From the IMG/VR virus record IMGVR_UViG_3300032193_000091, positions 1 to 57,002 of that record: a DNA stretch of 57,002 nucleotides; one strand, written 5' to 3'. Origin of the DNA: a virus. The notes below the pieces were generated by a model, which worked only from the letters and a program-made list of their open reading frames with translations, did no database searches and was not told where the DNA came from. Positions within the stretch are counted from its first letter, which is position 1. Every line of letters begins with the position of its first letter. This document shows, piece by piece, positions 23,301 to 44,964 of the stretch. The position numbers and the translations under genes are program-made.

Positions 23301-26300
23301 CTGGTAGAATACCTGTTGCATAATACTTGACTTCTGCGTATGTATCTACAGTAGACTTGTCGGCATCAACATCACTCGATGTAAATCTGAGTGTTAGAAC
23401 TCCAGTAGTAAATCGGATTTCTTCTGATGATTCATCATAATCTAGGGTTGATACATCACCACTCCATGTAGCATTTTTAGCAGGTGGTTTACCACCAGGG
23501 ATCAGAATAATACCACTAGCATTACCATTTGAATCTGTTACAACCTCACCATTAAATGCTGATAGTGAGTTGCCAGCAATACCACTATACCTCAGATCGG
23601 GATTAACCCAACGGTTGATATTTCTGCCTTCTAGGAATACATTGATCTTGGTATTTGGTTTTAGTCTTCTAATTACAAACTTAACCTCTTGTGATCTAGC
23701 AAAGAATTGAAGTGCTGTTCCAACAGAGTTTTCTCCAACAGACTTACTTTGAACTCCCTTAGCAAGTTCATTGTTCTGTGGTGCAATGTTAGAAGAACTT
23801 CCTACTGATGCTGCCTGAACTTCTGCAGAAGAACTGCTGCTGTTTAGTTCTCCAAGAGAATTAATTGCAGTGAAAGAAGGTGCTGTTCCAACCCAGTTTA
23901 CAATAAATGAATTGTATAGACTTGAGAAACTCTCCTTGACATCATCTTTTGCTAGGAAAATATTGTAGATACTAGTATTGGTATCTACAACCAGTGGAGC
24001 AACTGTCTGATCGTACCATTGATCGATAGCAGGAGAAATATCTCCATCACCAACATATTGGACGACTACAAAAGGATTTGGATTGATAGTCTTAGAAGCG
24101 AAATCGTTACCCAGCAATGAAAGTTCGCTATAAGGTAGAGTTACAATTCCATTTGTATTTGTATAACCAGATACTACTCTCTGGTCTTCTCTGGTATTGA
24201 CTTCTACCAACTTAACAGAATCTTCTTTAGACTGTGGTCTTAGGACTGACTGTCTGCTGTCAATCGAGCAGAGATAATCCTGAGAAGTTAGAGCACCAAC
24301 ACCATGAGTTTCGAAGTTATCAACAAAGAATCCAGACTTAAATCTGTCTAGACCGATTTCATCTTTAACTTGCATGTTGAGAGCTTGTTGCTCTAGGATG
24401 CTTAGAGTGGTATAATACTCAAGACGCTCAATACGCTTCTCTAGTTTACCGATGTCACGCATCGTGTAACGACGGTTGTCAACTGGAGTAATTCTTACAT
24501 CCTTTGTTGTCTTTGTAAAAGCAGGAATGTAGAGATAGAAGAGAGGAACTGCATCCTTGACAGGATCTGGTTTTGATGGATTGAGTGAAGAGTTTCCTTC
24601 CTTGACGATAAACTCCCCGTTCTTATTGAGGAAAATACCATCCATACGATCTAGGTACTGCTTCTGACTAAACTTAAACGTATATTCAAGGGTAGTATCT
24701 GGTGCTGGTGTAGCAGCAAATACAGAACCAATACCAGAGAAGTTACTTGAAGTTACTTCCAGAGATGCAGTATCTTGGAAACCAGCAAGAATGGTTTGAC
24801 TATTAACTTTAGGTCTAAAGTCAATAAGGTTTTTCAATTCTACTGTACCGAGAACTGATGATTCAAATGTTGGAATTTCTCCTTCTAAAACACCTGCTTC
24901 ATGTAGATATGAATCAATAGTACAGAAATCACCTTGTGAATGCTCGAAGTAATCAAATGCAATGACGATCTGACCTGCAGGAGATTCTGCTCCTGGTTTT
25001 AGATTAATTCTAGAAACGTCATATAGAGTATCTCTTTGACCGTTATCAAATGTAAATCTGCTGGTAATATCGGAACCAGAAACTAGATTACCTGCGCTAT
25101 CAATCTCTGGTGGAGCAGTTGTAGTTCCTTCGTAGACATACAGTAGTCTAAATGCATCAGAATATGATAGAATTTCTACTGCATCACTATCGTAGTCAGT
25201 TCCTCTGAATGGGATTACTCTATCACCAGCAGAATCTACAACAATTCTCTTATTTCTTACTGCAGTTTTGAGTCTTGGTTTTGCATTAGTGACTTCAATA
25301 GTTGCAGTCAACTTAAGAATAGGAGCTGTATATGTTTGCAACTCTTCTTCTGTTAGTGCTCCTGAGTTGAAATAATTTGTTGGTAGATTGAATGAAATGC
25401 TACCAGAAGTCAATCCACTGGAAGTATCTGTAGAAGATCTAATCTCAACTAGATCGGGATCGATGTATACGATATCACCTTCTGAAACTAGGTCTGCATC
25501 ATTCTGTTTAAGAACAGTTACAATGTAGTTGTTCTCATTGAAAGCAGTAAATCTCTGCGTACCGAATGGTAACTGTGCTGCAAATGTAATAAGACCACCA
25601 CCAGCAGAACCAGATGTTACAAAATCTCTTCTGAAGTTGTATACAATCTTTGTATCTTCTGGACTATTTACAATCTTAGAGATCGACCTACTACCAGTTG
25701 GGAATAGTAATGTTCCTCCGTTTGGATTTCCTAGTTTAGGACGGAATCTTACAACACTGGTTGCATCAACGTCACGATATAGTGTTTCGTCAATGTAGAT
25801 TCTTGACTTGGCAGATCCTTTCTGTTCTGTAGCATATTGAACGATTGCTCTAACTACATTATTTTCGGAATCTGAGAATTGAATCAGATCACCTTGCTGT
25901 AGAATAGAAGCTGCATTTGCACTGAAACTGGTAGACTCTAGGAACTTCGATCCCATCTTACCAAAGAATGTGAATGCAGTGACATCATATAGTTCACCAT
26001 ATTCTCTATCATCAATTAGAACATCTGCAGTGAAGTTATTAACACCACCAGATCCATAATTAGCACCAAGTGATTTTACATTATTTGGAGTGTAAGTGAC
26101 AACAGTATTCTTGTGTAGTACAGTATCCAGAACACATGCAGTCGTGATAGTTCCAGATGAAGTTGGAACTACTAGAGGTGGTTTTGTGTATACTGTGCTT
26201 ACTGCTGAGCGATCAAGAATATCAATTCTATAAATGGACTCTCCTACCTGACCGAAAGTAATTTGGGTCTCATCAAACTCAACACCATCAATTCTTAGTT

Positions 26301-28681: not shown

Positions 28682-30532
28682 TCAGAACTCGATAACGAGT
28701 TTGATGTCTTCAATCTGGTCGGGAGCACGAGTGATTAGACGACGGTTCTCAACGTAGATTACGTCACCTGAGTTGTTCTCGATCTCAGGAGCAGCAAGAC
28801 CTGAGTTGAATGTCTTACCTAGGAGTTCAGTTCCGTTAGCAAGTCCAGTCTCAACATCACCTGAAGCAGCAGATGTGTCACCAGTGATTGCGTTAGCAGA
28901 AGATTCGAATGCTCTTACAACACCTGAATCTAGGTGAGCTTCTACAGTTTGGATGTACTTAAGAACGCCTTCGCCAGCAATGTCATTGCCGTTGCCGTCC
29001 TTATCAAGAGTCCAGGAAACAACTGTTCCGTATGCAGTACCACCAGTTACGGTCTGCTGGATTCTCTCGTCAACGATGTAGTCAGCGTCTGCACCAGTGA
29101 CCTTGACTGCCTTAAGACCTGAAGCGGTATCTGCAGTTAGGAATGCAGTTGAACCCCACTGAAGAGGATCCTTAAGAATACCGATTCTACGGAAGTCGTT
29201 GTCAACTGGGAAGTCACCTGAACCCTCATCATAGGTGAGGCGAATGTTAGTCATTACGCGCTTACCGTTGAGTTCTACTTCGTGGTCTGAACCATGACCG
29301 CCTTGAGGAGGCATGACTGCTTGGAGTGAACCGTAAGCAGTGTTAGGTACGGTAGCAGTAGAAGATAGACCAGAGTTGGTGAATACGAAACCTTGCTCTA
29401 GGAGAACGTTACCATAGGTGTAACCTGAACCACGAGCAAACATTTCAGCAGAGGTGATTGCACCAGCAGCACTGGTGGTAAATCTTACGATAGCACCTGA
29501 ACCATCACCTTGAACCTCGGTGTAGAGGGTAGAGGATGCAGGAAGATCATCGCCAGCATCTTCGATTAGAACTACATCGAGAGCGCCGTCAACTGCTAGA
29601 CCTTCTACAGAAACTCTGGAAGGATTGCTTGACTCAACGATTGGCATGAAGTCCGATGAAAGGAACTTGATAACATCATCGGTTGGGATGGTATACATGT
29701 GCTTCCAGAGGTAGTTGCCACTTGGAGCGGACCAGATACCAGTTGAACCATCGTAGTTTGCACCATCGGTAGTTCTGGGTTGCTCTGCTTCTAGAACATC
29801 AACACCAGTTGGGTTCGAAGGAGTCTCACCATTATAGAGACACTTGAATACTTCGTAGTCAGAGTTCATTACATAGAACTTAGCGTCTGCAATTGAAGTA
29901 ACAGATGAAGAAGATACACCAGAGATACCTGTCTGACCGTTGCCAGATGCAGAGTAGTTAGGCTTCCACATGTCAAATCTTGGGTTGACAGAGGTGCTCC
30001 AGTTGTAACGACGGATTACTGTTCTTGCGTGCTGGGAATCAATTTTCTTAGCAGCAATAATCTCATCATAGAGAGAAAGCTTTTCGGTCTGGTTATCCAG
30101 AGGAGCAGGAGGATTGTCCTCGGTGCCGTAACGATAAACGCCAGTTTGTGCTCCTACGCTAGTGGAGATAGTTGAACCACCGTCTGCTGTTTCTCTGATG
30201 TCGGAACCTAAGGCAGGTGCAGAGTTAACTCCGCTTGCACCAAATACGTCGGTAAGAAGAAGAGCGTTATCGTAGATACCTGCAACAGTGGCACGGAAGG
30301 AGGTACTTGCATAATCACCAGCGGCAGTTCCTACAAAGATTTCTCTGCCAACTGTAAAGTTGTTCTGGAGCTTAGAGTGAATCTCTAAGTATGCGTACCA
30401 TCCTTGTGGGCGTCCCACAAAGAAATACATTCGAGAGCCGTCGCCAGCGGGATCGGCATCACTCTCTTGGAGTGATTCTAGGAATTGGCTCGCATTAAAA
30501 ATGCGAAACTTATCAGAGATAATAGCAGTCAT
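28682..30532 (-). CDS. 8: Baseplate wedge protein gp8
   Basis: The 616-residue protein begins MTAIISDKFRIFNASQFLES, contains MYFFVGRPQGW, a VIRRYNW and FDMWKPNYS core, YVMNSDYEVFKCLYNG, LWKHMYTIPTDDVIKF, and ends YVENRRLITRAPDQIEDIKL. The C-terminal segment matches the pattern of T4 gp8's end (MIYMENRPP... DQTEEINIL). T4 gp8 has about half this length; cyanophage versions are longer, with an inserted region around residues 340-540. gp8 is part of the wedge that binds gp7, gp10 and gp6. The gene follows gp7-like directly but has three late-promoter octamers and its own terminator, so it can be expressed alone. Confidence 0.92.
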   Translation of the reverse strand: MTAIISDKFRIFNASQFLESLQESDADPAGDGSRMYFFVGRPQGWYAYLEIHSKLQNNFTVGREIFVGTAAGDYASTSFRATVAGIYDNALLLTDVFGASGVNSAPALGSDIRETADGGSTISTSVGAQTGVYRYGTEDNPPAPLDNQTEKLSLYDEIIAAKKIDSQHARTVIRRYNWSTSVNPRFDMWKPNYSASGNGQTGISGVSSSSVTSIADAKFYVMNSDYEVFKCLYNGETPSNPTGVDVLEAEQPRTTDGANYDGSTGIWSAPSGNYLWKHMYTIPTDDVIKFLSSDFMPIVESSNPSRVSVEGLAVDGALDVVLIEDAGDDLPASSTLYTEVQGDGSGAIVRFTTSAAGAITSAEMFARGSGYTYGNVLLEQGFVFTNSGLSSTATVPNTAYGSLQAVMPPQGGHGSDHEVELNGKRVMTNIRLTYDEGSGDFPVDNDFRRIGILKDPLQWGSTAFLTADTASGLKAVKVTGADADYIVDERIQQTVTGGTAYGTVVSWTLDKDGNGNDIAGEGVLKYIQTVEAHLDSGVVRAFESSANAITGDTSAASGDVETGLANGTELLGKTFNSGLAAPEIENNSGDVIYVENRRLITRAPDQIEDIKLVIEF

Positions 30533-30569: not shown

Positions 30570-30595
30570 TATTTATATTTATACGATTATTTAGT
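30570..30595 (-). promoter_or_regulatory. Tandem late promoters for gp8
   Basis: The minus strand holds an ACTAAATA (30595-30588) and two overlapping perfect TATAAATA octamers (30583-30576 and 30577-30570, sharing two bases). The nearest lies 38 nt upstream of the gp8 ATG. This is the best match to the T4 late consensus in the window. Together with the terminator after gp8 it defines a one-gene late unit. Confidence 0.82.
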
Positions 30596-33500
30596 CAACC
30601 TCAATATTAATCATTTCATCACCTGCGGAGATGGTTGTTGGTCCACTGTAGACAGTACATCCATCGAAGGTTGTTCCAGTCTTGCTCGTATATTGGATAA
30701 TGGATCCTCCGCTTGTAAAGAGGTAACCAGAATCCAGGAAGTATTTAGTAGGTTCAGCACCTGGGTCTCCGCTGTTATCAACTGCAATTGTTCCGCTGAT
30801 GAGACCAGTCTGTGAAGTAATTGCAATTGCATTCTGAATAGATGGATTAGCGAGATTGAAGTAGTCACCGTTGATTGTGTAACTGGAGTTTGGACGATCT
30901 TCGAAGTCCGCAAGAGTCATTTGTGGGAACAATGCGGAGAATCTTTCGATAGAAACTCCAGATGCATTCGCGGAACCATCGTCATATCCAACATAATTCC
31001 AGTTTCTTAGGGTAGGTCCAGCATTACCTGTGGTATAATTACCTAGGTAATCTCCAGAACCACTAGAACCAAATAGTTGGTTGATAACATCAATTAGATC
31101 TCCGTCTCTCTGTAGGACATCATGATCGTCAGTGATATCTACAGAACCGCCATCTCTGGTTGGAACTGGGTCGCTGAGGAAGATCGATTCGACGAATCCA
31201 TCAACAACACCAGTTCCAGGATGGATTCTGAGTAGTTCTGTTGGACCGTTGTGTACGACTTCATGCTGAATGCTAATATGATGTAACTCTTCAACATGAT
31301 TGACTGTTGTTCTGACAACAGAGTCAGCGAAGATTCCAGACTCTTGTGGGCGGGTTGTGATTGCGTCTGCTTCGATAGAAGACGCGGAAACAGAAGAGAT
31401 TGTTGGAGCAAGACTGGAGCGAATCTGCTTATGGGAGACTTTCCAATCTGCCAATCTAACTGCAGACTTCTTGATATCGACTTTGATTTCAATGTTGTCG
31501 CGGGTGAGAGATTCGAACCTTGCTTCGGAGTTGATTGCACCCGCACCAGCAGCACCACCAGACTCAGTAACAATATTTGCCTGTACCGTAGCAAGAACGG
31601 TAGGTCTAACCTGAGACTTGATGATAGTCTTGGCAATCTTCCAGTCAACAATCTGTACGGCATCTTTCTTGATGTCCGCCTTGACTTCAGTTGCACCAAC
31701 ACTGAGGGAGTTGAAGGAAGCGATAGAATCCTTAGGAGCAATGCTAAGAGCATCACTGACAATAGAGATCTGTGAAGTAGATGTAACAGTAGGTGCGACC
31801 TGTGCCTTGACGATTGTCTGTGTAACCTTCCAATCAACCAGATTGATATCCGCTTTCTGAATCTCAAGTCTGTCTGGTTGCTTGTAGTAATACATTTCAC
31901 CAAACGCTGCCTCAGATGCCTGAGGAGCGATGCTGAGAGCCTCACTAATGATATCAACTCTATTGGTAGACGTAATAGAAGGTCTGAGAGTTGCCTTGAC
32001 GATTGTCTGCTCGACTCTCCAATCATATAGATTGATATCTGCCTTCTGAATCTCAAGTCTATCAGGTTGTGTATAATGTGTGAGACTATCAATAGAGACG
32101 AATGTCTCAGAAGGACGTGTTGTGATTGCCTCAGTCCTAGTGAGGAATGTTGTATTGGTGGAGACAATAGAAGGTCTAACTTGCGCCTTAACGATTGTTT
32201 GAGTGACCTTCCAGTCAACAATCTGAATTGCTTCCTTCTTAATATCTCTCTTGACAAGAGTTTCATTCCAAGCAAGAGATTCAATAGCAGAGAACGACTC
32301 TTTAGGAGCAATACTGATTGCTTCACTAATGATACTAATTTGTGAAGTAGAAGATACAGTAGGTCTGACAGTTGCCTTAGCGTAGATCTGGGTGATCTTA
32401 ACGTCGGGAACAACTGCTTCCTTCTTAATATCTTGCTCGATAAGAGTCTCTTTCCATGCAAGACTATCGAGTTTCTCAAACGAAGCGTATGGTTTGACAG
32501 TGACAGATTCAGAGAATACGTTGAGTAGAGTAACCTCTGTTGTGATTGCCTTATGAGCGGCAGCTGTGACAACTGTCTGAGTTACTACAGGAGCAGGGAA
32601 GAAGATGTCCTGTCTCTGCAGTTCACCGCGAATGATTGTTCTGTCTGCCTGTAGAGAAGAGAATAGTCCGATGACTTTTCTAGCACCAATATCAGTCTTA
32701 CGCTGAGTCTTAGCAGTGACATAAGATAGAGAGTCAATTGCTTGGACTGATTGAATCTGAGCGGTGATAACTCTTTCATTGAGAGTTGCTTTCTGCTCGA
32801 CACTAACTGGTGCTGGTTCAAACCACTTAGCAAATTCGTTATCTTCGTTGAACTTAACTTCAGAATCAATTTCCTTGACTCTGACAGATGCAACAGACTG
32901 AATAGCAGCAACACCACCAGAAACAACTTCAACTTTCTTAGGAATCTGCTTGAGGAATGTTCCTGCCAACCATGGTTTGGGTGTAGTGCCATCTACGCCT
33001 CTCTGTAGACTTAAGAATCTATCAGTGAGTTTACGGTAGTATCTGACGACCTCATCACCAATCATTAGGTAACCGTTCGTCTCAAACTTGCTAGTATCAG
33101 CAATGTATGCAACAGTATCTGTTGCGGTCATGTCTAGATCTAGGTAAGCACCAGTCTCATAGTAGTTGAAGTTTCCTAGAGAATCGTTGAAGATTCTCTT
33201 CTGTGACTGTGTGGTAAGTTTTCTTGCTGTTTGAGTGATAGAAACAGACTTGACGAAAGGAGTTCTGGTAGAAGCAATAGAAACATATTCGTTCTGACCC
33301 AAGAACATATCAACCAGATATGTCTGAACCTTCTTATTCTTAGTATCAGTAAACTTAGTGAGAGGTTGTACTACCCTAGCATCCAATCCTTCCTTGAAGT
33401 TACCGTCTTCTTCTACCTGAATGATTGCTGTAAGTGCCTTGAAGATTGCTCTTGGGGAATCTGCAATAATAGCAGAAGAAGTAAATGCCAGTGGAACTGG

Positions 33501-36500
33501 TAGACTTGCAATAGAAATTTCGGACGTAATAGTCCTGAGATCTGCATCTAATTTTGGTTGAATACCAATGGTAACTAGAGATACAGCAATGTCTCTTTCG
33601 ACTAAAATGTCGTATCCTCTTGCAACTACTGTCTTAGGAGCAGAGGTATATCCACTACCAGGATTGATTAAATCAACACTGAGGATGTGACCGCCAAGAG
33701 TTAGAACCTCTGCCTGTGCGCCACCACCATTGCCATCTTCAGGAATAAACTGAATGATTGGTGGTGTATAGTATTGATATGCTGTAGGTTGTGTGTTAGG
33801 ATTATAGTTACGCTGGTTCCACTCTAGTCTTTCAATTCTACCAGTGAGAACTTTGTTTCCATCTTCGTCCTCTACCGTCTCCATAATAGGAACAACACTT
33901 AGACCTGTTCCCTCGGTAGATCCGTTGTATGCTTCAACACCAACAATACCAAAGATGGAGTTATTAGATGGAATAGAATTGCTGTAATCCTTAGAGGTTA
34001 CAATGCTAGGAAGTGCAGAGATCTTCCTGTAAGCAGACTCACCATCAACTTTAATGGTATCACCACTGTTTAGTGGTAAGAAAGTCTTTCTGTAAGATCT
34101 ACCTAGTTTGGTAGCATTCCACTTGCCATTTCTATCTGCAAGACGAATTCTTCCTGTCTCGTCTGTAGTGATAGTTCTGTCAATTTGATTGACAACAATT
34201 TCTGTGGTAATTGAAGCATCAGCAATAGATGCTAGTAGTAGTCTATATCTTCCTGTAAATAATTGATTTGTTACAAGTTCGTGATATTGCGAAACAACAA
34301 ATCTTGCTTTAATAGTTACAATATCGCCATCTTCGCTGAAGATATATGGATCAATAATATCTCCTATAGGAGCATCATAAGCTGAACCATCGGATCTAGA
34401 TCCAATCGCTCTATATCCTGCATATCTCTTGTCTTGCATCCAAGAACTATATGATACATTATCATCATTCCTAGCAAGTTTATTAATTGCCTCGGTTGCA
34501 AAAGTTGTTGATTTATCGAGAGTGAATGTAATGTCACCTTGAATATAATAAGTGTTTGGTGAATAGTCGTAGATATTAAGGATCTGACCGACATCTCTAC
34601 CATAAAGCAGTCTCATGTCAACATCATTTTGTTCCGTGATTGGAACATTAAAGTAAATGTTAGGACCAGAAATGGTGTAACTATAACCTTCTCTCTGTAG
34701 GACACCATCGACAAAGACAAACAAGAACTCTTTCTCGTCGATCTTCTGGACTGAGCGATCCTCCATATCCAAGATTAGGAATGGACCAGATCTTACACCA
34801 TCTACTAAGTTGTAATCAATTGTAAGTCTCTTGTAATTACCAACGCCAAGACCTACAACTCTTTCAACTGCAGTTGGTTCGCCAATACTCTTGGCACCAA
34901 AATCTTGATCCCAGATAGGAGCAACATCAAATACAATCTTGTTAGGAATTACAGTTCTGTCAATATAATATGCATCGCCACCTGGGTAAGTTGCGTTATA
35001 CTTGGGTTGCTGTAATACGGCATTGATAGTGATGAAGAAGTCCTCATCTTCCTCAGAGTTAACTTCTGTGCCATCTTCCCAATAGAGTTCGAACTCTTTG
35101 GTTTCTCCGTCAACGTAATCAGGAAGAGACCTTGAAACTGATTCTTCATTGAGAATATCAGTAACATTAGCAAAGAGAGAATCTACTGAAGAAATGACAT
35201 CAGCACACTCACTATCTGGAAGCAGAGGATCTTCAATGATGTTATAATTTGTGTATACTCTCAGTGAAGTCCAGTTACCTTCACTGTTTAGATTTTGTGG
35301 TGTCGCATCAACATATCCAGTTCCGAAAGCAAGGATGTCCTTGACAATTTGAATGTAAGAACCCAGTGCTGACGCTACATTAGCACATGCTGGGACGAGA
35401 GAATCAATAGCAACGTCTGGATCTATAACAGGAGCAATGTTGGTATAAGTTCCTGCACCTAGACTGTTTCTCATTGCTAGTGTCATCTTCTCGACTAGCA
35501 AATCCCATGCAGCAATGGCCGCGGCAGTCTCTTCAACACTTCTATTAATATGTGTTAAAGTTTCTCCATAAGGATATCCTGCATTCGTATAATATAGTCT
35601 TCCAAATTCTACAACTTGCTCTGTACCACCAAACTTAAGATGATAGACAATTGCATCAATAAGATATCCTAGATCTCTAGCACATTTTTCGACGGTTGTC
35701 TGGAGAGTGTAGTTGTTGTAGATAGTAGCACTGACTTCTTCCTGCAAGTATGCTTTGTTTGCAGCAATTAGATTTGCAGCATCGTAGAAAGTACCAGTAT
35801 TAATACCACTGAAGTAGAATGTTGCAGTATCAGATCCAGAGAATGATGGAGGAACACTGAAGGTATCTCCATCATCAACAATAAATGTATCTCCTGGTTC
35901 TACCGCTGCCGTACTAGTTGGGCTAGTGGTATTACCATCAGTAGTTCCATCAAAAGTCGTAGTTCCCGCAGGAGCTCCACCTCCTCCACCAGAGTTAGAG
36001 AGTGCTGCTCTAGTCAGTGTAATTTGAATCTCACTGTCAATAGATGAGATTCTAGTGCCTTCTGGGAAAGCACCACCAGCACTGATAAGCATACCAACAG
36101 CAACGTTGTTGGTGTCTGCCATCGTCAGGATTCTAGATCCTTGAATGAAGTTGACATTGTTGACTACAATATCCCAGTTCCTGATTGCCAGTTTAGATAG
36201 ATTGGTGGCGTATCTAAAGATGTCAAGAGAAGGTACTTTATTATCAGTAATATAATCGTAACTATTATCTTCGTTAAAATATGATAGATAATCGACAGTC
36301 TTTACATTACCACCAAACCTTAGATCATGCTCGTATGCCTTGAGAATATTTCTCAGATCTGACTCATAACTAGACCCTTTGGTACTCCAGTCTAGTGTTG
36401 GATGAATCTCTTTACCGTAACCGATAGATTCTGAGATAATAAAGTCAAGGTTTCTTTCGATCTGATTAGCAGAATCCAACCACCTTCCGTTACGCTGGAA

Positions 36501-39500
36501 GATGTTTCTGATTTTTCTTAGATACCTGTCATTTGATGTGGTATCCTTGAATGCAAAATATCTGCCATAGAATTGCATTCCGTTGTATTCTGTTACATCA
36601 CCAAGTCTAGATCCAGTCAGTTTTTCACTATCACCAAGAGGTGCTTGTGCGAATACAATATCACTTCCATCAATTGTATATGCTACTCCTGGTTCTTGTA
36701 AGATTCCATCTAAGGTAATAAAGATATTGTTTACTTTTGCAGGAACAAAAGGATTATCAAAAGAATCTCTTAGTTGGAACCTAGTCGTACCAACGGTTTT
36801 GATATTTGCTCCAGTATAAGCAGTATCATTAATATCAACACCATCAAAGGAATTCTTTGCATACCATGGTTTGCCATCATCAAGAACATCATCATAGAAT
36901 CCAGGAGTTGGATTGTATACTCTAATAGTATATGCTCTGAATTCATTGAAGTTGAATTCTGAAGATGCGATGGCACCAGGACCTCTTCTGACCCTATTAT
37001 TTTCTATCTTCTGAATAGACTGAGTAACAACCCTTTGCTTAATGTCACTAGTAATAGTATTGACTTCTGGGTTCCAAAGTTGTATAATAGAAGCTTTGCC
37101 AGATCTAGGCATCTTGGCAGGCATTCTTGTATTAGCATCAGTCTCGATATCAACCTGACCGAACAGTTTAAAACCAGCAGGGTGTGTAGTTGACTTGATT
37201 AAGTCTCTCCACTGATCGATTGGAGTTCTAGACTTGACAACATAGGAATAATCCTGATAGAAGAAACTATCAGTTATTCTTTGTGATCTGTCACTAACTT
37301 TACCTCTAGCAGAATTATAGAATCCAGCATTGTCATAAGATGATGTGATATTCTCAGTTAGTGTACTAGAGTATACTGCCTTTACAGCAGCTCTATTCGT
37401 TGGATTGCTGACACTGACAATAGGGAAATTATTCCTTACAATCCCTTGCAGTTGCTTGAGTTTCAGTAAATTCGTTCCAACCTTAAATTCGCTAACTACT
37501 GCTCGGAAGACTTCTCTTCCTGCTGAATTAGTTTGTGTTACAACCTCTCCTTTTTGGAATCTACCAATAGTTTCCGTTGAAGATGGTCTCTTCAGTGCAA
37601 CAGTAAAATGAGAAGTAAAACTAGATGCTACAGTTTTATCTAAGTGGAAGGCACCACCGTTGCGAATAATCTTAATGCTCTGAGGTACACCAATAGTATT
37701 ACTATCAACATACAACTCAGTATCAGATTCAATGATCTCTACTGTTGGTTTGTATGTGTATCCTTTTCCTGCATTCTCTACAGCAATAATAGAAATCTTA
37801 CCATTAGTTACACTTGGTTTGAATCTAGCACCCTGTCCGTCTCCGTCAGTAATTACAACAACTGGATTGGTGTAATTTGATCCACCTTCAGTTACAGTTA
37901 TGCCAGTGATAACTTGTACTTTTTCGTCATACTCTACTTCAGCAGTTGCTTTGTATGTTGGGGTGATATCTACACCAGTAATTACAGGAACTTTCTTATA
38001 GTTAAGTCCAAGGTTAGTTACCTTAATAGTATTGATTTCTCCAATAGAGAAAGCACCTTTTGATGTGTATGTAATAACCCCTGATCCATCCCACAGAGGT
38101 TTGGAATCGACGTTGTATACAATTCTTGTAGGTGTTACATAAATTACAGTCTTCTCGCCTTGTAGAGGATCTGTGATGAGTTCTAGATATGCATCATCAG
38201 ACGTTACAACACCGTTCTTATCAAAATAGTAGAATGTTGTAAAATCAGTTCCTACCTTGGTATCATACTGGTTCTCGGCAATCCTAGGACCAAAACCAAA
38301 TTTAACTTCAGTAAATGCCCCTTCGTTTCCAGGAAGAGTGGTGGATGCAAGTTTCTCTTCTGTGATAAGATTGTATGCTCTACTTGGACTTAAGTCGAAA
38401 TAAGTTCCAGTTAGAGATGAGTGTGAAGTATCGAACTTGTAACGATAGAATTCCTGAATCTGAATATTTGGATTAGGAGTGAATACAATATTATCTTCAG
38501 AAATTTCAAACTTAAAGTTAGGAGATTCAATACTAGAAACAGTTACAAGTCTTGCTGGTGTGCTGCCATCAAAGAACGTGCTGCTATTCTGAACTGAAGT
38601 AGCGGTATTTCTCTCAATACCATAATTGTAAACCAGGATTACTGATTGAGTGTCTCTATCATAAGTTAATACTTTTCCTGATGTTGATAGTCCACCAACT
38701 TGGAAGTTTTCTGGGAAGTTATATTGTGCTTTATATAAAGTTACTGCTTGACCGTCGTAGTGATTCGTATCTTCAGAACCTTCAATGCCACGATTGACAG
38801 TAACCTCTGTTGGACTATCAATAGAAGTTACTTCTAGAATCTCAGATCCAATTTTAATCAGATCACCAATTGCAAGACCAGTGGTGCTCTTTAGTACAAG
38901 GTTTCTCTTTCCTTCTGCAAACCCAACGTGATCGACGTAGATAGAAAGTCTGGCAGTGCTTCTAGAAGCAGATGATCTGAAAAGGGATTCATCATCGACA
39001 GAAAGATAATCACCTTTTCTGTATCCAGTTCCTTTGTTGGTAATATCAACAGTAGCAACAGTAGCAGATACTGTTGCAACAATCTCTAAACCTGTGCTAG
39101 TTACCAATCCATCATTATCAAACACTTTAATGTAGTCTGGAAGGTCATCATTAGTGATGACAAATGATCCTCCAACGTAATTGTATCCAGGTGTTTTTAC
39201 ATAAACTTTATTACCTACAATTTCGCCATTATTAATTGTAAATGATGCAACCAACCCCTCACCGTCACCACCAGAAATAACAATATTATTGTAAACGCCA
39301 TCGCGGTATCCAGAGTGAGTTCCTTGGACCTGCAAATCAGATACAACATTGTTTTTGACAACGATAGTTGCAGTTGCACCAGTTCCAGATCCGCCAGTTA
39401 GTGCTACATCAGCGTATGTGTCAGGAGCATAATCTGCTCCACCGTTTAGAATTTGGAATGCTCCAATACCAGTGTCAGAAATTTCTGATTCGTATTCTGG

Positions 39501-42500
39501 TGTTTTGAGAACTACATTTTGATATAGTCTCTTTCTAACATAATAGTCTTTTGTCTTGATAGAATCATCTGGTCTAATATCAACTGTGATTTTATCATCA
39601 ATGCCTAGACCATGTGGATTTGAAGTCTCAATCAACGCAACACTTTGATTAACCTCAAATGGTTCTAAGTTATCACTAAGTGAAGTGAGGACTACTGGTT
39701 TAGATCCAGAAGTGTTGAAGAAGTCAGAAGACTGTAGGAAGTAATCACCACCAATTTCTTCTGCAATACCATCACCAGTTGGTTCGTTTGCATTAGAAGT
39801 AAATTCTTGTCCTACTTGGAACTGTAGTCCAGCACCAATCTGATCCCAGTTGGTGTCTCCAAGTTCTACAATTCTGTATTGTTTATTTGGTAGAATAGAA
39901 GTTGCTGTAATTCTACCCTGGTTGAGGGGAACCCAATCACCCTCTGTTACTTTAATCTCTACTGTATTCTGACTGCTGGTTCCATTTAGAATTTCACCCT
40001 TTGCTACAGCTGGGTTAACACCATCAGTTAGACTAAGGATTGCTCCTTTGGTGTATGAACTCTTCTGGTCGAGTAGAATGAAGAAGGTTTTGATGTCAGC
40101 AGAAAATGTTCCAGTATTGTCAAATGTACCAATAACATCCTTTAGAACAATTTGATTGTCGTTTCTGACTTCACCAACAATAACACCAGATGCATTGGAA
40201 GATGGTTGTCTTAGAGTATCATCTTCAAATAGATAAGCATTTTGAATAGTAGTTAACTTGACTACCTTATTTTCATAACTGTCAATATATTCTACAGGTT
40301 GTCCCTTGACAGATTCAACTAATGCTTCTGCCTGAAATCCATCTGTGCCTTTATTGTCAAAGTACAGTTTTGAATTGACAGAAAATACGTTTGCAGATCT
40401 CTCAACAGTTACATTGTCAACTGTGCCTGGTTTTACGCTACCAATCTCTGCAATGACACCTTCGCCATTTCCAGGCATACCCAATTCATTGAGTCTTCTG
40501 GATTTTTTGGGAATGTCGTTCTGGTTAATATTCGAATTGTAATTACTATCCACTGGTAGTGAATAGAAGTTCTTCCCTAAAATGTATGGGAATTGCGGTA
40601 CTTGATCGCTATTAATAGTAGTGAAATAAGCATAAACTCCCTCTGGAAAATCGGGGGTAACGCAAAATCGTCCATTGTTTTCGTCTAGTGAACCATTCTT
40701 GTGTCTATAGGTGTAATCATTTGTGAATGTACCTAAAGGATATTGATTTGTTCCAGGTCCTCCACGCCTGGTAGCGTTGAGAACGTAACTGGATGTCATA
40801 CGAGCAATACCAGTAGTGGCATCTAGTGGATCCTCAAATCCATAAGGACCATAGATTGGATTGCCGTCATAAGCAAAACCAATAATTGGTGAGTGGGTTA
40901 GACTACCAGTCTCTTGGTTGTTAGCAGTAATATTGTCATTCAGGGCATATCTGAATGCCTTTGGATTTGCAAATTGTCCGTAACCATACTCATATGAAAT
41001 ATTGAAGTTCTCAAAGACATAACCATTCTGGTCGTCCATTACAGACTTATACTTCTCATATCTGTTGAAGTTCCACTCTGTTAGTTCAACTTGTGCCTTT
41101 GCACCAGAACCAACAGGAATGATATCAACTCTCACTGTATTCTGATTGTAGAATACACCTTCGGCATTCTTTTCAAATCCAGTAATTCTTCCGTCAACAT
41201 CAACGATAGCAGTAAAGTCTGCAAAACGACCTTTACCATTATTGTCAGTGATTCTTACAGTTGGTGGAGAAGAATAGAACTCACCAGCATTATCGATAAT
41301 CAAACTGGTTACTTTATCACCAGTTACAACTGCACGAACAATAGCACCTCTACCAGAAGTTACCTCAATCGTTGGTACAACAGGAAATACCTTTTGTGAA
41401 GTTACAGTATAACTTTCAATAACTGATCCTGATAGATTTGCTTGTACCAGATCAGGAACACCATCAACTAGAACAAATGGTGGTTTAGCATATCCTGAAC
41501 CTTGCTCTACAACAGATACAGATTCTAAATTTCCATATCTGACACTTTCTTCGTCTTTGTATCCATATAGACGAACACCATTAAGCAGAAGTCCAACTTC
41601 TGATTTTGGAGTGGCATACTTCTCAGTAGTCTTAATCGCTTCTTTTCTAAGAATACGAAGAAGTTTCTGATCTTTAATTGGTTGATTATCTAGAACACCT
41701 TCTTTAAAGATTTCATATGAAGGAAAACTAGATGATGTGATATAATAGTATTGATCGTCTGCAAAAATAGCAGATACATCACTTGAAACTGAAGACAGTT
41801 GTGCCTCAAGAGTTGGTTTAGTTGGAATCTTGATGGGAAGATTATTATTCAGGATCCATCTGTAAATGTTAGATCCCGTCTGAGTGATCTTATTGTCAGC
41901 AGTCTGGAAACCAGGAATAGAGATTTGAACCTTATCGTTTGGATATGAATAAGGTTGAGCGTCAGTAATCTGGAAATCGTAGACTACACCTAGGGTTACG
42001 AGTTCTACATTAGCACCCTTGATGATAACTGGTTTGTATACAGGCGTACCTTCTTCATGAGTATAGGTAATGTCGCCTCGTCTCTCAATAGTAAATTGAG
42101 TTACATTCTTGTCATTGAAGGAGATGACTTCTTCTCCAATCAAAATCTCACCTTTTTCTTTCCATCCAATAGTAGAGAACACATTAACTCTCTTACCAAT
42201 ACCTGTTGTATTAGAAAGAGTCTTAGTGAGACTAGTTTTCGTAGAGATGGCAAATTCACCAGTTACGGTCTCTGGTGCGAGAACTAGATTGACGATTGCT
42301 TCTCCATCTGCAGTAATGTCACCAATTACATTGTCTACAGTAGCAGAGACATATCCATACTCTGCGGTCTCTTCCTGTACTACTACATTACCAATCAGAT
42401 CATTAACATCACCACTAATCACCTTTACTTTTAGAGCATAGATGTTAGTCCAGTCAGAATCGGAAGACTTAAGGGTGAAATCTGTTGGGTTGTATACCTC

Positions 42501-43163
42501 TGGTTTTTCCTTAGCATCCTTGGAGATGATGGTGTTGAAGATGAACTTAATCGAACTCTTCGTACCCTTTGCCTTATAGAACTTATTAATGTTCTTGATA
42601 AGAGTTCTTTTGTCAACTTCACCCTTAAGATACTTCTCTGGGAAAGAACCTAAGTATTGCGATTCAAAATTCTTGACAAATGCATACAGGAAAAGGTTAC
42701 TAACGTTGTAAACCTTTGCACCATAATTATGACTTGCTGCATCTGTGCTTGTAAAAGTGCTAGACTCATACAAGTCGCCTAGCGATGTATTGCCGCTTAC
42801 TCCTCTGTGGCAATTTCTAAATTCTGTTTCTGTTCTAGTCTCATAGAACATGATCTCATCATTGATTCTGATGTAACCATTCTTCTCTGGGAATGAAGAT
42901 GCATCATCAACAACGATGATTGTTTCAGTAGCATTAACTGTTACTGATAGTTCTGTATACTGCTTTAGAAGACTTTTCTCATAATAATCGATATCAGCGT
43001 ACTTCTGGATATTGTTGATAATATCCAAAGTGCCACCTTGCACCTCCTGTGCTTCATAATACTTCTCTACAAACTTGCTAAAAAGTTCGTATTCAGAAGA
43101 AATGAATTCAGGAAGCTGCGACTCAATTAGAGTTGAAATTCTCTTAGTCTTTACAGCAGGCAT
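30591..43163 (-). CDS. 7: Giant gp7-like baseplate wedge protein, 4190 residues
   Basis: The gene lies between gp6 and gp8, the T4 gp7 position. Two separated segments resemble the C-terminal part of T4 gp7: residues about 183-260 (VDKRTLIKNINKFYKAKGTK, then SIKFIFNTI, DLIGNVVVQEETAEYGYV), and about 1967-2005 (YSYVVKSRTPIDQW, STTHPAGFKLFG). They are close together in T4 gp7, so about 1700 residues appear to have been inserted between them. The insert includes a YHYH-type domain (about 756-860), repeated RIND/IGDE-Y-RG modules, and many GSGY beta repeats. Beyond 2005 lie helical Cys/Trp modules (about 2215-2600) and seven about 65-residue repeats (3522-3955). gp7 organises the T4 wedge. Homology is inferred by eye; the virion role is firm. 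Confidence 0.75.
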   Translation of the reverse strand: MPAVKTKRISTLIESQLPEFISSEYELFSKFVEKYYEAQEVQGGTLDIINNIQKYADIDYYEKSLLKQYTELSVTVNATETIIVVDDASSFPEKNGYIRINDEIMFYETRTETEFRNCHRGVSGNTSLGDLYESSTFTSTDAASHNYGAKVYNVSNLFLYAFVKNFESQYLGSFPEKYLKGEVDKRTLIKNINKFYKAKGTKSSIKFIFNTIISKDAKEKPEVYNPTDFTLKSSDSDWTNIYALKVKVISGDVNDLIGNVVVQEETAEYGYVSATVDNVIGDITADGEAIVNLVLAPETVTGEFAISTKTSLTKTLSNTTGIGKRVNVFSTIGWKEKGEILIGEEVISFNDKNVTQFTIERRGDITYTHEEGTPVYKPVIIKGANVELVTLGVVYDFQITDAQPYSYPNDKVQISIPGFQTADNKITQTGSNIYRWILNNNLPIKIPTKPTLEAQLSSVSSDVSAIFADDQYYYITSSSFPSYEIFKEGVLDNQPIKDQKLLRILRKEAIKTTEKYATPKSEVGLLLNGVRLYGYKDEESVRYGNLESVSVVEQGSGYAKPPFVLVDGVPDLVQANLSGSVIESYTVTSQKVFPVVPTIEVTSGRGAIVRAVVTGDKVTSLIIDNAGEFYSSPPTVRITDNNGKGRFADFTAIVDVDGRITGFEKNAEGVFYNQNTVRVDIIPVGSGAKAQVELTEWNFNRYEKYKSVMDDQNGYVFENFNISYEYGYGQFANPKAFRYALNDNITANNQETGSLTHSPIIGFAYDGNPIYGPYGFEDPLDATTGIARMTSSYVLNATRRGGPGTNQYPLGTFTNDYTYRHKNGSLDENNGRFCVTPDFPEGVYAYFTTINSDQVPQFPYILGKNFYSLPVDSNYNSNINQNDIPKKSRRLNELGMPGNGEGVIAEIGSVKPGTVDNVTVERSANVFSVNSKLYFDNKGTDGFQAEALVESVKGQPVEYIDSYENKVVKLTTIQNAYLFEDDTLRQPSSNASGVIVGEVRNDNQIVLKDVIGTFDNTGTFSADIKTFFILLDQKSSYTKGAILSLTDGVNPAVAKGEILNGTSSQNTVEIKVTEGDWVPLNQGRITATSILPNKQYRIVELGDTNWDQIGAGLQFQVGQEFTSNANEPTGDGIAEEIGGDYFLQSSDFFNTSGSKPVVLTSLSDNLEPFEVNQSVALIETSNPHGLGIDDKITVDIRPDDSIKTKDYYVRKRLYQNVVLKTPEYESEISDTGIGAFQILNGGADYAPDTYADVALTGGSGTGATATIVVKNNVVSDLQVQGTHSGYRDGVYNNIVISGGDGEGLVASFTINNGEIVGNKVYVKTPGYNYVGGSFVITNDDLPDYIKVFDNDGLVTSTGLEIVATVSATVATVDITNKGTGYRKGDYLSVDDESLFRSSASRSTARLSIYVDHVGFAEGKRNLVLKSTTGLAIGDLIKIGSEILEVTSIDSPTEVTVNRGIEGSEDTNHYDGQAVTLYKAQYNFPENFQVGGLSTSGKVLTYDRDTQSVILVYNYGIERNTATSVQNSSTFFDGSTPARLVTVSSIESPNFKFEISEDNIVFTPNPNIQIQEFYRYKFDTSHSSLTGTYFDLSPSRAYNLITEEKLASTTLPGNEGAFTEVKFGFGPRIAENQYDTKVGTDFTTFYYFDKNGVVTSDDAYLELITDPLQGEKTVIYVTPTRIVYNVDSKPLWDGSGVITYTSKGAFSIGEINTIKVTNLGLNYKKVPVITGVDITPTYKATAEVEYDEKVQVITGITVTEGGSNYTNPVVVITDGDGQGARFKPSVTNGKISIIAVENAGKGYTYKPTVEIIESDTELYVDSNTIGVPQSIKIIRNGGAFHLDKTVASSFTSHFTVALKRPSSTETIGRFQKGEVVTQTNSAGREVFRAVVSEFKVGTNLLKLKQLQGIVRNNFPIVSVSNPTNRAAVKAVYSSTLTENITSSYDNAGFYNSARGKVSDRSQRITDSFFYQDYSYVVKSRTPIDQWRDLIKSTTHPAGFKLFGQVDIETDANTRMPAKMPRSGKASIIQLWNPEVNTITSDIKQRVVTQSIQKIENNRVRRGPGAIASSEFNFNEFRAYTIRVYNPTPGFYDDVLDDGKPWYAKNSFDGVDINDTAYTGANIKTVGTTRFQLRDSFDNPFVPAKVNNIFITLDGILQEPGVAYTIDGSDIVFAQAPLGDSEKLTGSRLGDVTEYNGMQFYGRYFAFKDTTSNDRYLRKIRNIFQRNGRWLDSANQIERNLDFIISESIGYGKEIHPTLDWSTKGSSYESDLRNILKAYEHDLRFGGNVKTVDYLSYFNEDNSYDYITDNKVPSLDIFRYATNLSKLAIRNWDIVVNNVNFIQGSRILTMADTNNVAVGMLISAGGAFPEGTRISSIDSEIQITLTRAALSNSGGGGGAPAGTTTFDGTTDGNTTSPTSTAAVEPGDTFIVDDGDTFSVPPSFSGSDTATFYFSGINTGTFYDAANLIAANKAYLQEEVSATIYNNYTLQTTVEKCARDLGYLIDAIVYHLKFGGTEQVVEFGRLYYTNAGYPYGETLTHINRSVEETAAAIAAWDLLVEKMTLAMRNSLGAGTYTNIAPVIDPDVAIDSLVPACANVASALGSYIQIVKDILAFGTGYVDATPQNLNSEGNWTSLRVYTNYNIIEDPLLPDSECADVISSVDSLFANVTDILNEESVSRSLPDYVDGETKEFELYWEDGTEVNSEEDEDFFITINAVLQQPKYNATYPGGDAYYIDRTVIPNKIVFDVAPIWDQDFGAKSIGEPTAVERVVGLGVGNYKRLTIDYNLVDGVRSGPFLILDMEDRSVQKIDEKEFLFVFVDGVLQREGYSYTISGPNIYFNVPITEQNDVDMRLLYGRDVGQILNIYDYSPNTYYIQGDITFTLDKSTTFATEAINKLARNDDNVSYSSWMQDKRYAGYRAIGSRSDGSAYDAPIGDIIDPYIFSEDGDIVTIKARFVVSQYHELVTNQLFTGRYRLLLASIADASITTEIVVNQIDRTITTDETGRIRLADRNGKWNATKLGRSYRKTFLPLNSGDTIKVDGESAYRKISALPSIVTSKDYSNSIPSNNSIFGIVGVEAYNGSTEGTGLSVVPIMETVEDEDGNKVLTGRIERLEWNQRNYNPNTQPTAYQYYTPPIIQFIPEDGNGGGAQAEVLTLGGHILSVDLINPGSGYTSAPKTVVARGYDILVERDIAVSLVTIGIQPKLDADLRTITSEISIASLPVPLAFTSSAIIADSPRAIFKALTAIIQVEEDGNFKEGLDARVVQPLTKFTDTKNKKVQTYLVDMFLGQNEYVSIASTRTPFVKSVSITQTARKLTTQSQKRIFNDSLGNFNYYETGAYLDLDMTATDTVAYIADTSKFETNGYLMIGDEVVRYYRKLTDRFLSLQRGVDGTTPKPWLAGTFLKQIPKKVEVVSGGVAAIQSVASVRVKEIDSEVKFNEDNEFAKWFEPAPVSVEQKATLNERVITAQIQSVQAIDSLSYVTAKTQRKTDIGARKVIGLFSSLQADRTIIRGELQRQDIFFPAPVVTQTVVTAAAHKAITTEVTLLNVFSESVTVKPYASFEKLDSLAWKETLIEQDIKKEAVVPDVKITQIYAKATVRPTVSSTSQISIISEAISIAPKESFSAIESLAWNETLVKRDIKKEAIQIVDWKVTQTIVKAQVRPSIVSTNTTFLTRTEAITTRPSETFVSIDSLTHYTQPDRLEIQKADINLYDWRVEQTIVKATLRPSITSTNRVDIISEALSIAPQASEAAFGEMYYYKQPDRLEIQKADINLVDWKVTQTIVKAQVAPTVTSTSQISIVSDALSIAPKDSIASFNSLSVGATEVKADIKKDAVQIVDWKIAKTIIKSQVRPTVLATVQANIVTESGGAAGAGAINSEARFESLTRDNIEIKVDIKKSAVRLADWKVSHKQIRSSLAPTISSVSASSIEADAITTRPQESGIFADSVVRTTVNHVEELHHISIQHEVVHNGPTELLRIHPGTGVVDGFVESIFLSDPVPTRDGGSVDITDDHDVLQRDGDLIDVINQLFGSSGSGDYLGNYTTGNAGPTLRNWNYVGYDDGSANASGVSIERFSALFPQMTLADFEDRPNSSYTINGDYFNLANPSIQNAIAITSQTGLISGTIAVDNSGDPGAEPTKYFLDSGYLFTSGGSIIQYTSKTGTTFDGCTVYSGPTTISAGDEMINIEVD
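31300..32600 (-). repeat. Seven about 65-residue tandem repeats in the gp7-like C-terminus
   Basis: Units begin with DWKVTQTIVKAQVRP or a close variant, continue with a Ser/Thr-rich strand, an EAISIAPK or EAITTRPS segment, and end in a charged DIKKEAIQIV or EIQKADINLV helix. Six clear units are preceded by one degenerate unit (PVVTQTVVTAAAHK) and trail off after VNHVEELHH. Unit length is 62-66 residues, about 190 nt. The alternation of charged helix and strand suggests a repeated, rod-like or coiled-coil-linked structure. Repetition also produces a false 477-residue ORF in another frame. Confidence 0.88.
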
Positions 43164-43167
43164 TTAC

Positions 43168-44964
43168 TTACTCTTTGTATGCAGTGAACGAGGAATTAGC
43201 AACGTCAACGTCAAGATAAACCTCGCGGAGTGCCTTGATATCATTAGAAAGTGGTTTCACAGTAACTGAGATACGGTTATCAAAATAACTACCTTTGATG
43301 ATAGTTAAATTATACATCTTGAGCTCACCTCTATCATAGTCAATATCACCGACTTCCTTGTCTAGAACGACTTTTTCACCTGTTGCGGTATCTAGTCTAT
43401 ATAGGACAATTTTGCCATCCCTATCTTCGAGATAGACATCAAAATTAGGATATTCAGTAACTCTAAACCCTGTTGTAGAAAGGGTTGCACCATCGCAGTC
43501 TTTATCGAAGGAATTCTGGAAACAAACTTCGTAATAGAACGTAGAATTCAACTGTGGATAGAAATCTTTTCTCATTCTGACTGAAGTCAAGTTAGAGTTA
43601 ATCGATCTGTCTGCATCATCGATTACACCAGTAAATTTACTGTGTCTAAACTTACCGTTGAACTTCTCAGTGTCTGATGTGTCGATATAGTCTTGTACCG
43701 ATCCAATAACTTTGTCACGGATCTGTGTTGGTGTCTGATCTGTCTTACCACCATTATAATAAATCTTACTTTCCATCTCAACATACAGTACAGATGGATC
43801 TACGATCACTGGGGTAACAGAAGCAACTGAATATTTCTTCAGTTCATCAACAATTTGCTTTTTGGTAACACTTGTTACATAAGTAGCATCCTTCGGTTTC
43901 AGTACAATGAATACTCTGCCATACTGAGGAGGATCTGCTTCTTCACCGCCGTAGATAATGATATCACTGGTAGCAGGATAGATCTTTCTGATGATAGATC
44001 CGTAGTCATTTGATGTTACTGCTCTATCTTGTGATCCATATGCTTTAGGAGCGTTAAACTTGATCTTACTAATAGACTCCAGTCCTTCGCCTCCAGAGGC
44101 AGGAACAGTCGAATCGATAGTTATATCAAAAGAGTTAGGAGAGACCCCTTGTGGGTTCTCCAGGACGCCAGAGAAGACGAATGTACGTACACTATTGCTC
44201 TCTGGACCAGAAGTGGTTAGGTAAGACACTTCTACTCTCGCACCATTGTCAAGTTTCTTGCCTAACACACCATCGCCAAAAACTAGTTCGTATCTTTCAT
44301 CTTCGATCTCGTCTAGAAAGAATACTTTAGAATCTTGATCTACATCTAGAATATTATCTGATACTAGATATGGTTCACTGAACGATCCACCAGTAGGGAA
44401 TACTTTTGCTCTTACTGTATTGGTGTCAATGTTCTGGTTGTCAAGAATAAACCTTTGTGACTTCAGTGATGTGTTAACAGTGTAAGTGTTTGTTAGAAGA
44501 GTTCCTTCATATACAGGAACTTCTTCGAAAATTGCTCTTTGATTTGATACTTGTGCCTTTACATCATCAAGAACAACATATTGATATGTTGTATTGTCAT
44601 ATGACGCAACAAATCCTGTTCCTTTCTTCAGTAGGAGTTCAGTATCAGTTGTTGCGTTATTGTAATTGACTGTAAAGTCAATATAAGCAACGGGAGCTGT
44701 GATGCTCTTGGGTCTGTAACCCAGTTGCTTTGCCAGAGCAACCACATTGTCCCTCAGGGTGGCAGAATCAATGAATAGTTCATTGACTACCATGTTAGTG
44801 TTAAACGCCGTATAGTAGGTGTTATAGGCGAGTGTGTCGATCAGCGTTGATAACGCAGATCCTTCAAAGTCATAGTCAGTAAAATCTGACTGCGCTCTAA
44901 GGTACTCCTTCAGAGCAGACTTGATATCTTCAAAGTCTAAATTAGCAACTTGAGTGTATGGCAT
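43168..44964 (-). CDS. 6: Baseplate wedge protein gp6
   Basis: This 598-residue protein begins MPYTQVANLDFEDIKSALKE and includes DFEGSALSTLIDTLAYNTYY and LFIDSATLRDNVVALAKQLGY, the unmistakable N-terminal region of T4-like gp6 (also the baseplate J-like family). gp6 forms the wedge ring joining neighbouring wedges and drives the baseplate change on infection. The start overlaps the gp25 stop (TAATG), and the gp7-like gene begins two bases past its own stop, giving a gp25-gp6-gp7 operon as in other T4-like cyanophages. Length is near the family norm. Confidence 0.94.
   Translation of the reverse strand: MPYTQVANLDFEDIKSALKEYLRAQSDFTDYDFEGSALSTLIDTLAYNTYYTAFNTNMVVNELFIDSATLRDNVVALAKQLGYRPKSITAPVAYIDFTVNYNNATTDTELLLKKGTGFVASYDNTTYQYVVLDDVKAQVSNQRAIFEEVPVYEGTLLTNTYTVNTSLKSQRFILDNQNIDTNTVRAKVFPTGGSFSEPYLVSDNILDVDQDSKVFFLDEIEDERYELVFGDGVLGKKLDNGARVEVSYLTTSGPESNSVRTFVFSGVLENPQGVSPNSFDITIDSTVPASGGEGLESISKIKFNAPKAYGSQDRAVTSNDYGSIIRKIYPATSDIIIYGGEEADPPQYGRVFIVLKPKDATYVTSVTKKQIVDELKKYSVASVTPVIVDPSVLYVEMESKIYYNGGKTDQTPTQIRDKVIGSVQDYIDTSDTEKFNGKFRHSKFTGVIDDADRSINSNLTSVRMRKDFYPQLNSTFYYEVCFQNSFDKDCDGATLSTTGFRVTEYPNFDVYLEDRDGKIVLYRLDTATGEKVVLDKEVGDIDYDRGELKMYNLTIIKGSYFDNRISVTVKPLSNDIKALREVYLDVDVANSSFTAYKE

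Follow-up and report, generated by a model that had tools for sequence, protein, structure and literature searches.

A giant gp7-like baseplate wedge protein with a core divided by insertions in a marine cyanophage-like virus

Can a phage protein of 4190 residues be gp7, a wedge protein at the centre of the T4 model tail? The question is raised by a 57 kb virus fragment in IMG/VR (record IMGVR_UViG_3300032193_000091), all 57,002 nt of which were analysed here and are called the window. The source is a marine cyanophage-like virus. An open reading frame (ORF) at 30591–43163 on the minus strand, open throughout from ATG to stop, encodes a protein of 4190 amino acids (aa) and 460 kDa, hereafter the giant. 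An earlier, sequence-only reading had reported this ORF, which is real, without its strand, and had proposed a gp7-like protein enlarged by one internal insertion. That the giant is homologous to the C-terminal part of T4 gp7 and was enlarged by insertion is supported by profiles with controls, structure comparison and gene order. We consider it highly probable that the giant is a T4 gp7 orthologue whose core (~643–896 in T4 numbering) is split by inserts and followed by a C-terminal extension, a judgement that takes in the packing of the core and the role at the baseplate rim proposed below.

Profile matches to the C-terminal part of T4 gp7

Two segments of the giant carry the resemblance: VDKRTLIKNINKFYKAKGTK, located at residue 183 as first read, and WRDLIKSTTHPAGF, located at residue 1985 where ~1984 had been given. 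Each was turned into a profile of proteins at the gp7 place and compared by hhalign, whose E-values refer to a single comparison and not to a whole database, with six Straboviridae gp7s. The N profile, built from nine of the 13 non-Straboviridae proteins (without phiM7, Melnitz-2, P-SSM4 and P-HM2), matched T4 residues 641–754 with a probability of 96.9%; the C profile, built from 12 of the 13 (without phiM7), matched T4 856–887 at 64.7%. The two matches follow each other as in T4. Control alignments of gp7 (99 column-shuffled, one reversed) gave at most 8.0 (N) and 1.5 (C), and single T4 gp6, gp8, gp9, gp10 and gp11 sequences scored no higher than 1.5, so the similarity of both segments to C-terminal gp7 is beyond chance, as had been supposed. 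With T4 gp7 alone as target the values were 95.1 (N) and 42.7 (C).

A PDB profile search with six N-terminal sequences placed gp7 at ranks 1 and 2 of 177,635, with modest E-values (0.0081 and 0.010; third rank, 0.11); a single-sequence PDB search with the giant gave nothing usable (best E 0.67). The Pfam family PF23786 (Baseplate_wedge) matched the giant at 16.3 bits (E 0.0071), below the curated cut-off of 27, and all six scanned short relatives (Mendera, RHph_I1_18, SRB7757, Cr30, Melnitz-2 and HTVC008M) above it. With a hidden Markov model (HMM) of T4 gp7 1–640, none of the 14 non-Straboviridae proteins examined gave a match at E ≤ 5; therefore, the giant is not placed in the Straboviridae-type (T4) gp7 subtype. 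A sequence HMM of T4 761–861 alone did not recover the window.

Short relatives link the giant to T4. The 528-aa protein of the Rhizobium phage RHph_I1_18 was used to scan viral contigs; of the 168 relatives found, the best 80 were kept. Among these 80, 68 stop inside their contig and measure 442–1676 aa; the shortest counted as complete (442 aa) ends before the C motif though its match continues, and may be broken, and the shortest with both motifs has 482 aa. The KGT and C motifs, the latter found by pattern, lie 145–1006 residues apart in 64 complete relatives (position 95 was assumed where the KGT pattern failed) and ~120 apart in T4. Again among the best 80 of 168, all 75 relatives whose contig extends 900 bases or more upstream have gp6 within 1.8 kb on that side, and gp8 lies at most 2.5 kb downstream in 62 of the 66 that could be tested.

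Twenty-two of the 80 relatives, aligned with a 490-aa protein (L130) as lead sequence, gave a profile that matched T4 gp7 643–896 over 247 columns (99.1%, E 1.7e-18); the controls, 59 shuffled and one reversed, did not exceed 1.56. The giant family, led by the window protein, matched the 490-aa profile in two blocks, residues 6–281 (99.8%, E 4.5e-28), within which window residues ~61–160 form a gap, and residues 1939–2016 (99.5%, E 3.8e-23). Some 36 residues separate the two core blocks in the 490-aa relative and ~1657 in the window. These blocks bear out enlargement by internal insertion, but not by a single one: there are at least two insertions, and probably a third.

The divided core and its predicted structure

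The giant is divided as follows.

42981..43148, minus strand: gp7 core, helical part, residues 6–61; T4 gp7 from ~643 (hhalign via short relatives)
42690..42980, minus strand: insertion 1, small beta module, residues 62–158; gap in short relatives
42459..42689, minus strand: gp7 core, second helical part with KGT motif, residues 159–235; T4 ~720–758 (profile evidence)
42252..42458, minus strand: gp7 domain V-like part, residues 236–304; model compared with gp7 763–843
42030..42251, minus strand: insertion 2, IGDE-type beta module, residues 305–378; structure match, confident strands, apparently inside domain V
37353..41984, minus strand: insertion 3, large, ~residues 394–1937 (lower boundary approximate); GSGY-like modules and YHYH-family domain
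40602..41084, minus strand: YHYH-family domain (PF14240), residues 695–854; Pfam E 1.1e-29, without the namesake motif
37116..37352, minus strand: gp7 core C segment, YQDYSY...HPAGF, residues 1938–2016; T4 ~856–896 (hhalign 99.5%)
30594..37115, minus strand: C-terminal extension, residues 2017–4190; no gp7 900–1032 match, pieces resemble neighbouring tail ORFs
31588..32463, minus strand: array of ~63-residue repeats with 189/192-nt spacing

Core HMMs cut from the alignment led by the 490-aa relative were run on 20 proteins, with E-values calculated for a set of 1000. All 20, the six Straboviridae gp7s included, were recovered by the N core profile. In seven of seven giants (window, S-RSM4, S-SM2, S-SCSM1, P-HM2, P-SSM4 and S-SZBM1) the N match is broken at one place, ~profile columns 56–68; in HTVC008M and Melnitz-2 it is broken slightly earlier, at ~columns 41–47. 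The first insert comprises ~100 residues in five giants and ~610 in P-SSM4 and S-SZBM1, and between the N match and the C segment lie ~1520–2750 residues across the giants. With the C core profile, each of the 14 non-Straboviridae proteins reached at least E 6.1e-12; its matches to the six Straboviridae gp7s were weak (E 0.0007–0.16), those to D483 and Acj61 among them. A widened C-motif pattern missed D483, Acj61, phiM7, Mendera and P-HM2, all of which the profile recovered; in P-HM2 and Mendera the motif position was set by hand. The split core may be the reason why the gene goes unnamed in some cyanophages.

Insertion 3 spans ~1540 residues up to residue 1937, and ~2170 residues follow the C segment, close to the 2000 first estimated. 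The modules that the sequence-only reading had placed between the two segments are largely there: PF14240, GSGY-like strings (by pattern, at 555, 1378, 1760 and 1799) and an IGDE-like string (strict pattern) at 342. Further GSGY-like strings at 2263, 3021 and 3169 and a second IGDE-like string at 3368 lie behind the C segment, and the literal string YHYH is absent from the whole ORF. Among the loci compared, 94 of 95 pattern-matched positions have YAYF and one has YVYF; in an alignment with a Deinococcus YHYH protein, the intact motif of the latter sits elsewhere in the domain. YHYH domains are predicted to bind zinc via histidines and an aspartate and may be hydrolases (PMC7824862). We suspect that the activity has been lost, and an enzymatic role through this domain, which also occurs in S-SCSM1 and P-HM2, is doubtful with the namesake motif missing. 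The repeat array (residues 3490–3909) may form a stalk of variable length; blastp found nothing matching it in the S-RSM4 orthologue. Elsewhere in the extension, at window 35052–36491 (minus strand; residues 2225–2704), a (R/S)DL...A..(H/Y)(D/H)L(R/K)FGG-like module occurs twice, near residues 2268 and 2496; this region also matches repeated places in a 3478-aa tail fibre ORF.

Structure prediction for the 490-aa relative (22 alignment rows) gave a weak model, with a predicted local distance difference test (pLDDT) of 50.5 and a predicted template modelling score of 0.24. Foldseek nevertheless returned only three matches at E 0.001 or better (1e-8, 2e-8 and 2.3e-6; next, 0.08), and entry, length and residue range suggest that all three chains are gp7. 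VIA-align placed the same model on 5iv5 (Z 10.3, 17.7 Å, 154 residues aligned), 9f4a (Z 10.2, 14.3 Å, 135) and 5hx2 (Z 8.2, 3.0 Å, 79), with the next row at 5.8. In the model of window residues 1–960 (44 rows, pLDDT 57.6), residues 236–393 were placed by VIA on gp7 763–843 of 9f4a (Z 8.8, 2.5 Å, 77 aligned, rank 5) and 5iv5 (Z 8.4, 2.3 Å, 76 aligned, rank 6), middling Z values that, by the tool's own caution, may reflect only a common arrangement. T4 domain V corresponds to PF21427 at 766–861, and the short-relative profile aligns across it. Since ~77 of the 158 residues of 236–393 were aligned, insertion 2 seems, from the ranges only, to lie inside domain V. Both smaller inserts resemble small beta modules of other phage structural proteins: the insertion 1 model (62–158) phage VP1 9in6_M (Z 10.5, 2.2 Å, 77 aligned) and GP4 8jov_1 (Z 10.1, 4.3 Å, 81 aligned), and the insertion 2 model (305–378) 9n71_A (Z 9.1, 1.9 Å, 69 aligned).

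Several results weigh against identifying the giant as gp7. A profile built solely from giants matches T4 directly over a short stretch (N, 88.6% over 34 columns; C, 33.1% over 32; none of 60 decoys above 1.6). The window is reached only at E 4.1 by a plain HMM of T4 gp7 641–760, and T4 gp7 only at E 0.11 by the C profile. T4 domain VI (PF21456) is unmatched in the window by a gp7 900–1032 profile of only six sequences. TM-scores of the 490-aa model to gp7 are ~0.15, with root-mean-square deviations of 23–27 Å; therefore, this model does not reproduce the overall gp7 arrangement and, being weak, it is no demonstration that the two halves pack together. In the window model the core helices fall below pLDDT 50. 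Foldseek of that model found nothing at E 0.001 or better.

Locus, conservation and alternative readings

The start codon of the giant lies four bases behind gp6, and gp8 follows directly downstream, both neighbours having been identified by profile.

43168..44964, minus strand: gp6, 4 bases upstream of the giant; phrog_219 E 2.8e-211, Pfam gp6 domains
28682..30532, minus strand: gp8, directly downstream of the giant; phrog_438 E 4.2e-162, PF09215
44964..45356, minus strand: gp25 by position only (synteny with the g25 place in S-RSM4)
20398..28584, minus strand: homologue of VrlC (DUF4815, PF16075) encoded separately behind gp8; HTVC008M VrlC matches by blastp at E 7e-128

Neighbouring minus-strand ORFs at 4411–14847 (3478 aa), 15397–20196 (1599 aa) and 20398–28584 (2728 aa) have modules in common with the giant by blastp, which looks as if tail genes swap parts. 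PHROG families 4406, 701, 3465 and 460 match the giant yet carry the categories 'head and packaging' or 'head closure', perhaps transferred via shared modules.

By tblastn, residues 1–2100 of the giant hit 491 of 50,697 phage records, mainly of Synechococcus phages, with at least 80% covered in 60 records. Across residues 1–960, 59 viral-contig relatives (some nearly identical to one another) align with 0–7 gaps and 60–93% identity. The ratio of nonsynonymous to synonymous substitution rates (dN/dS) against four relatives is 0–0.35 in segments of residues 1–2784, core and inserts alike, and 0.05–0.23 in the pieces of insertion 3; two of the four relatives are close to each other, the other two are near dS saturation, and one segment gave no value. 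Core and inserts are thus under purifying selection over residues 1–2784. Relatives cover the giant as far as residue 2784; beyond it, continuity rests on resemblance to S-RSM4 and further cyanophages.

The giant could instead be a tail fibre or another peripheral virion protein with a borrowed gp7-like anchor, the real wedge protein being encoded elsewhere, for example by VrlC. A 2020 paper states that cyano- and pelagimyophages lack gp7 and that VrlC appears to have taken its place (PMC7029224), and the giant's modules do resemble those of neighbouring tail ORFs. A better match to another family over the whole length, which the sequence-only reading would have counted against gp7, is touched formally by phrog_4406, a profile labelled merely 'virion structural protein' that spans residues 4–3698; S-RSM4, itself a 'structural protein', has the gp7 core. 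What speaks against a borrowed anchor is that the gp7 core flanks the break on either side, arranged as in T4 and directly behind gp6, and that the VrlC homologue has a gene of its own, located behind gp8. VrlC and the gp7 core coexist in HTVC008M and in the window, because HTVC008M VrlC is homologous to the ORF at 20398–28584 and HTVC008M has the core. VrlC as a replacement of gp7 is therefore rejected; PF16075 (VrlC/DUF4815) is also absent among the giant's Pfam matches up to E 1. The published statement that gp7 is absent is contradicted by these results, and we regard the borrowed anchor as very unlikely.

Even less probable is a fusion of originally separate genes, in which the two gp7-like segments would never have formed one core that was opened. 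Only the end state is visible, which would suit a fusion; against it stand the single-gene relatives, whose many intermediate spacings run through the range given above for the 64 complete ones. An assembly error or chimeric contig comes to mind with a 57 kb IMG/VR fragment, but the alignment of 59 relatives over residues 1–960, a 3515-aa S-RSM4 orthologue in the equivalent place and purifying selection across residues 1–2784 leave it hardly any probability. A single gp7 core opened by insertions is the reading that we prefer, and the long form was presumably derived from the short one.

Proposed role and known systems

Each T4 tail contains six copies of gp7, which is a monomer (PMC3004832). 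In Vibrio phage XM1, the gp7 counterpart is the wedge scaffold together with two gp6-like chains, and it binds the tailspike via a loop and its C-terminus, both of which are located in the tailspike density (PMC10457771). By analogy with XM1, the core of the giant would do the wedge job: its split halves would fold back together and form the wedge core with two gp6 chains, and the inserts and C-terminal extension may extend outwards as loops that provide docking and host-contact modules at the rim. The giant would in this way serve as a scaffold for decorations. Six copies would give ~2.8 MDa of gp7 per baseplate vs ~0.7 MDa in T4. A more far-reaching proposal, which we hold to be rather unlikely, is that the cyanomyophage gp7 core is an insertion platform whose fixed breaks take modules of ~0.1–2.7 thousand residues, so that a single polypeptide in each wedge does the work of the separate T4 pin and short-fibre proteins and swaps alter host contact and not assembly. 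If gp7 can open at fixed places, reach about seven times the T4 length and still be in the virion, the cyanomyophage baseplate would keep the T4 core and have much of its rim encoded in cis.

Giant gp7 proteins are already on record. GenBank/RefSeq names gp7 in S-SM2 (4156 aa), P-SSM4 (7312 aa) and P-HM2 (4454 aa); the S-SCSM1 giant (4120 aa) is annotated 'baseplate wedge subunit' and that of S-SZBM1 (6619 aa) 'virion structural protein' in its RefSeq record. Virion mass spectrometry of S-SZBM1 found S-SZBM1_208, 'baseplate wedge initiator' (724 kDa, 6619 aa), with 71 peptides and 13.5% coverage (PMC9146016); the S-SZBM1 gene behind gp6 encodes exactly 6619 aa and has the split core. In non-cyanophages, gp7, gp10 and gp12 are so divergent that they form up to nine clusters (PMC3037559). 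New here are the split-core anatomy and the contradiction of an absent gp7. The titles and abstract starts returned by literature searches, in which subscription journals are mostly not covered, describe no split gp7 core, so an earlier description is possible. The core profile lets unnamed 'structural proteins' be recognised as gp7.

Compared with T4 gp7 (1032 aa; PDB 5IV5, 5HX2), the giant has the same core (~643–896), order and place behind gp6; T4 gp7 differs in residues 1–640, which are unmatched in the giants, in the lack of a large core insertion and in domain VI, which is undetected in the window. XM1 gp17, a T4 gp7 orthologue and wedge protein of the (gp6)2-gp7 type (PMC10457771), is very small at 242 aa and is likened to the giant by description, not by sequence. 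The nearest named relative, the S-RSM4 'strucutural protein' (CAR63348.1), is 69% and 55% identical in two long blocks; like the giant, it lies between g6 and g8 and has the gp7 core, but it is not named gp7 and lacks the 63-residue array match. The cyanophage giants (S-SM2, P-HM2, P-SSM4, S-SCSM1 and S-SZBM1) share with the window a split core, an identical first break and a position directly behind gp6, but differ in the lengths and contents of their inserts; unlike in the window, the next gene carries no gp8 annotation in P-SSM4, S-SCSM1 and S-SZBM1. At the other end of the size range stand short gp7-place proteins of Mendera (503 aa), RHph_I1_18 (528 aa; next gene not named gp8), SRB7757 (586 aa; record without annotation), Cr30 (767 aa), Melnitz-2 (896 aa), phiM7 (1006 aa) and HTVC008M (1016 aa), which match the same core profile as the giant and have smaller inserts.

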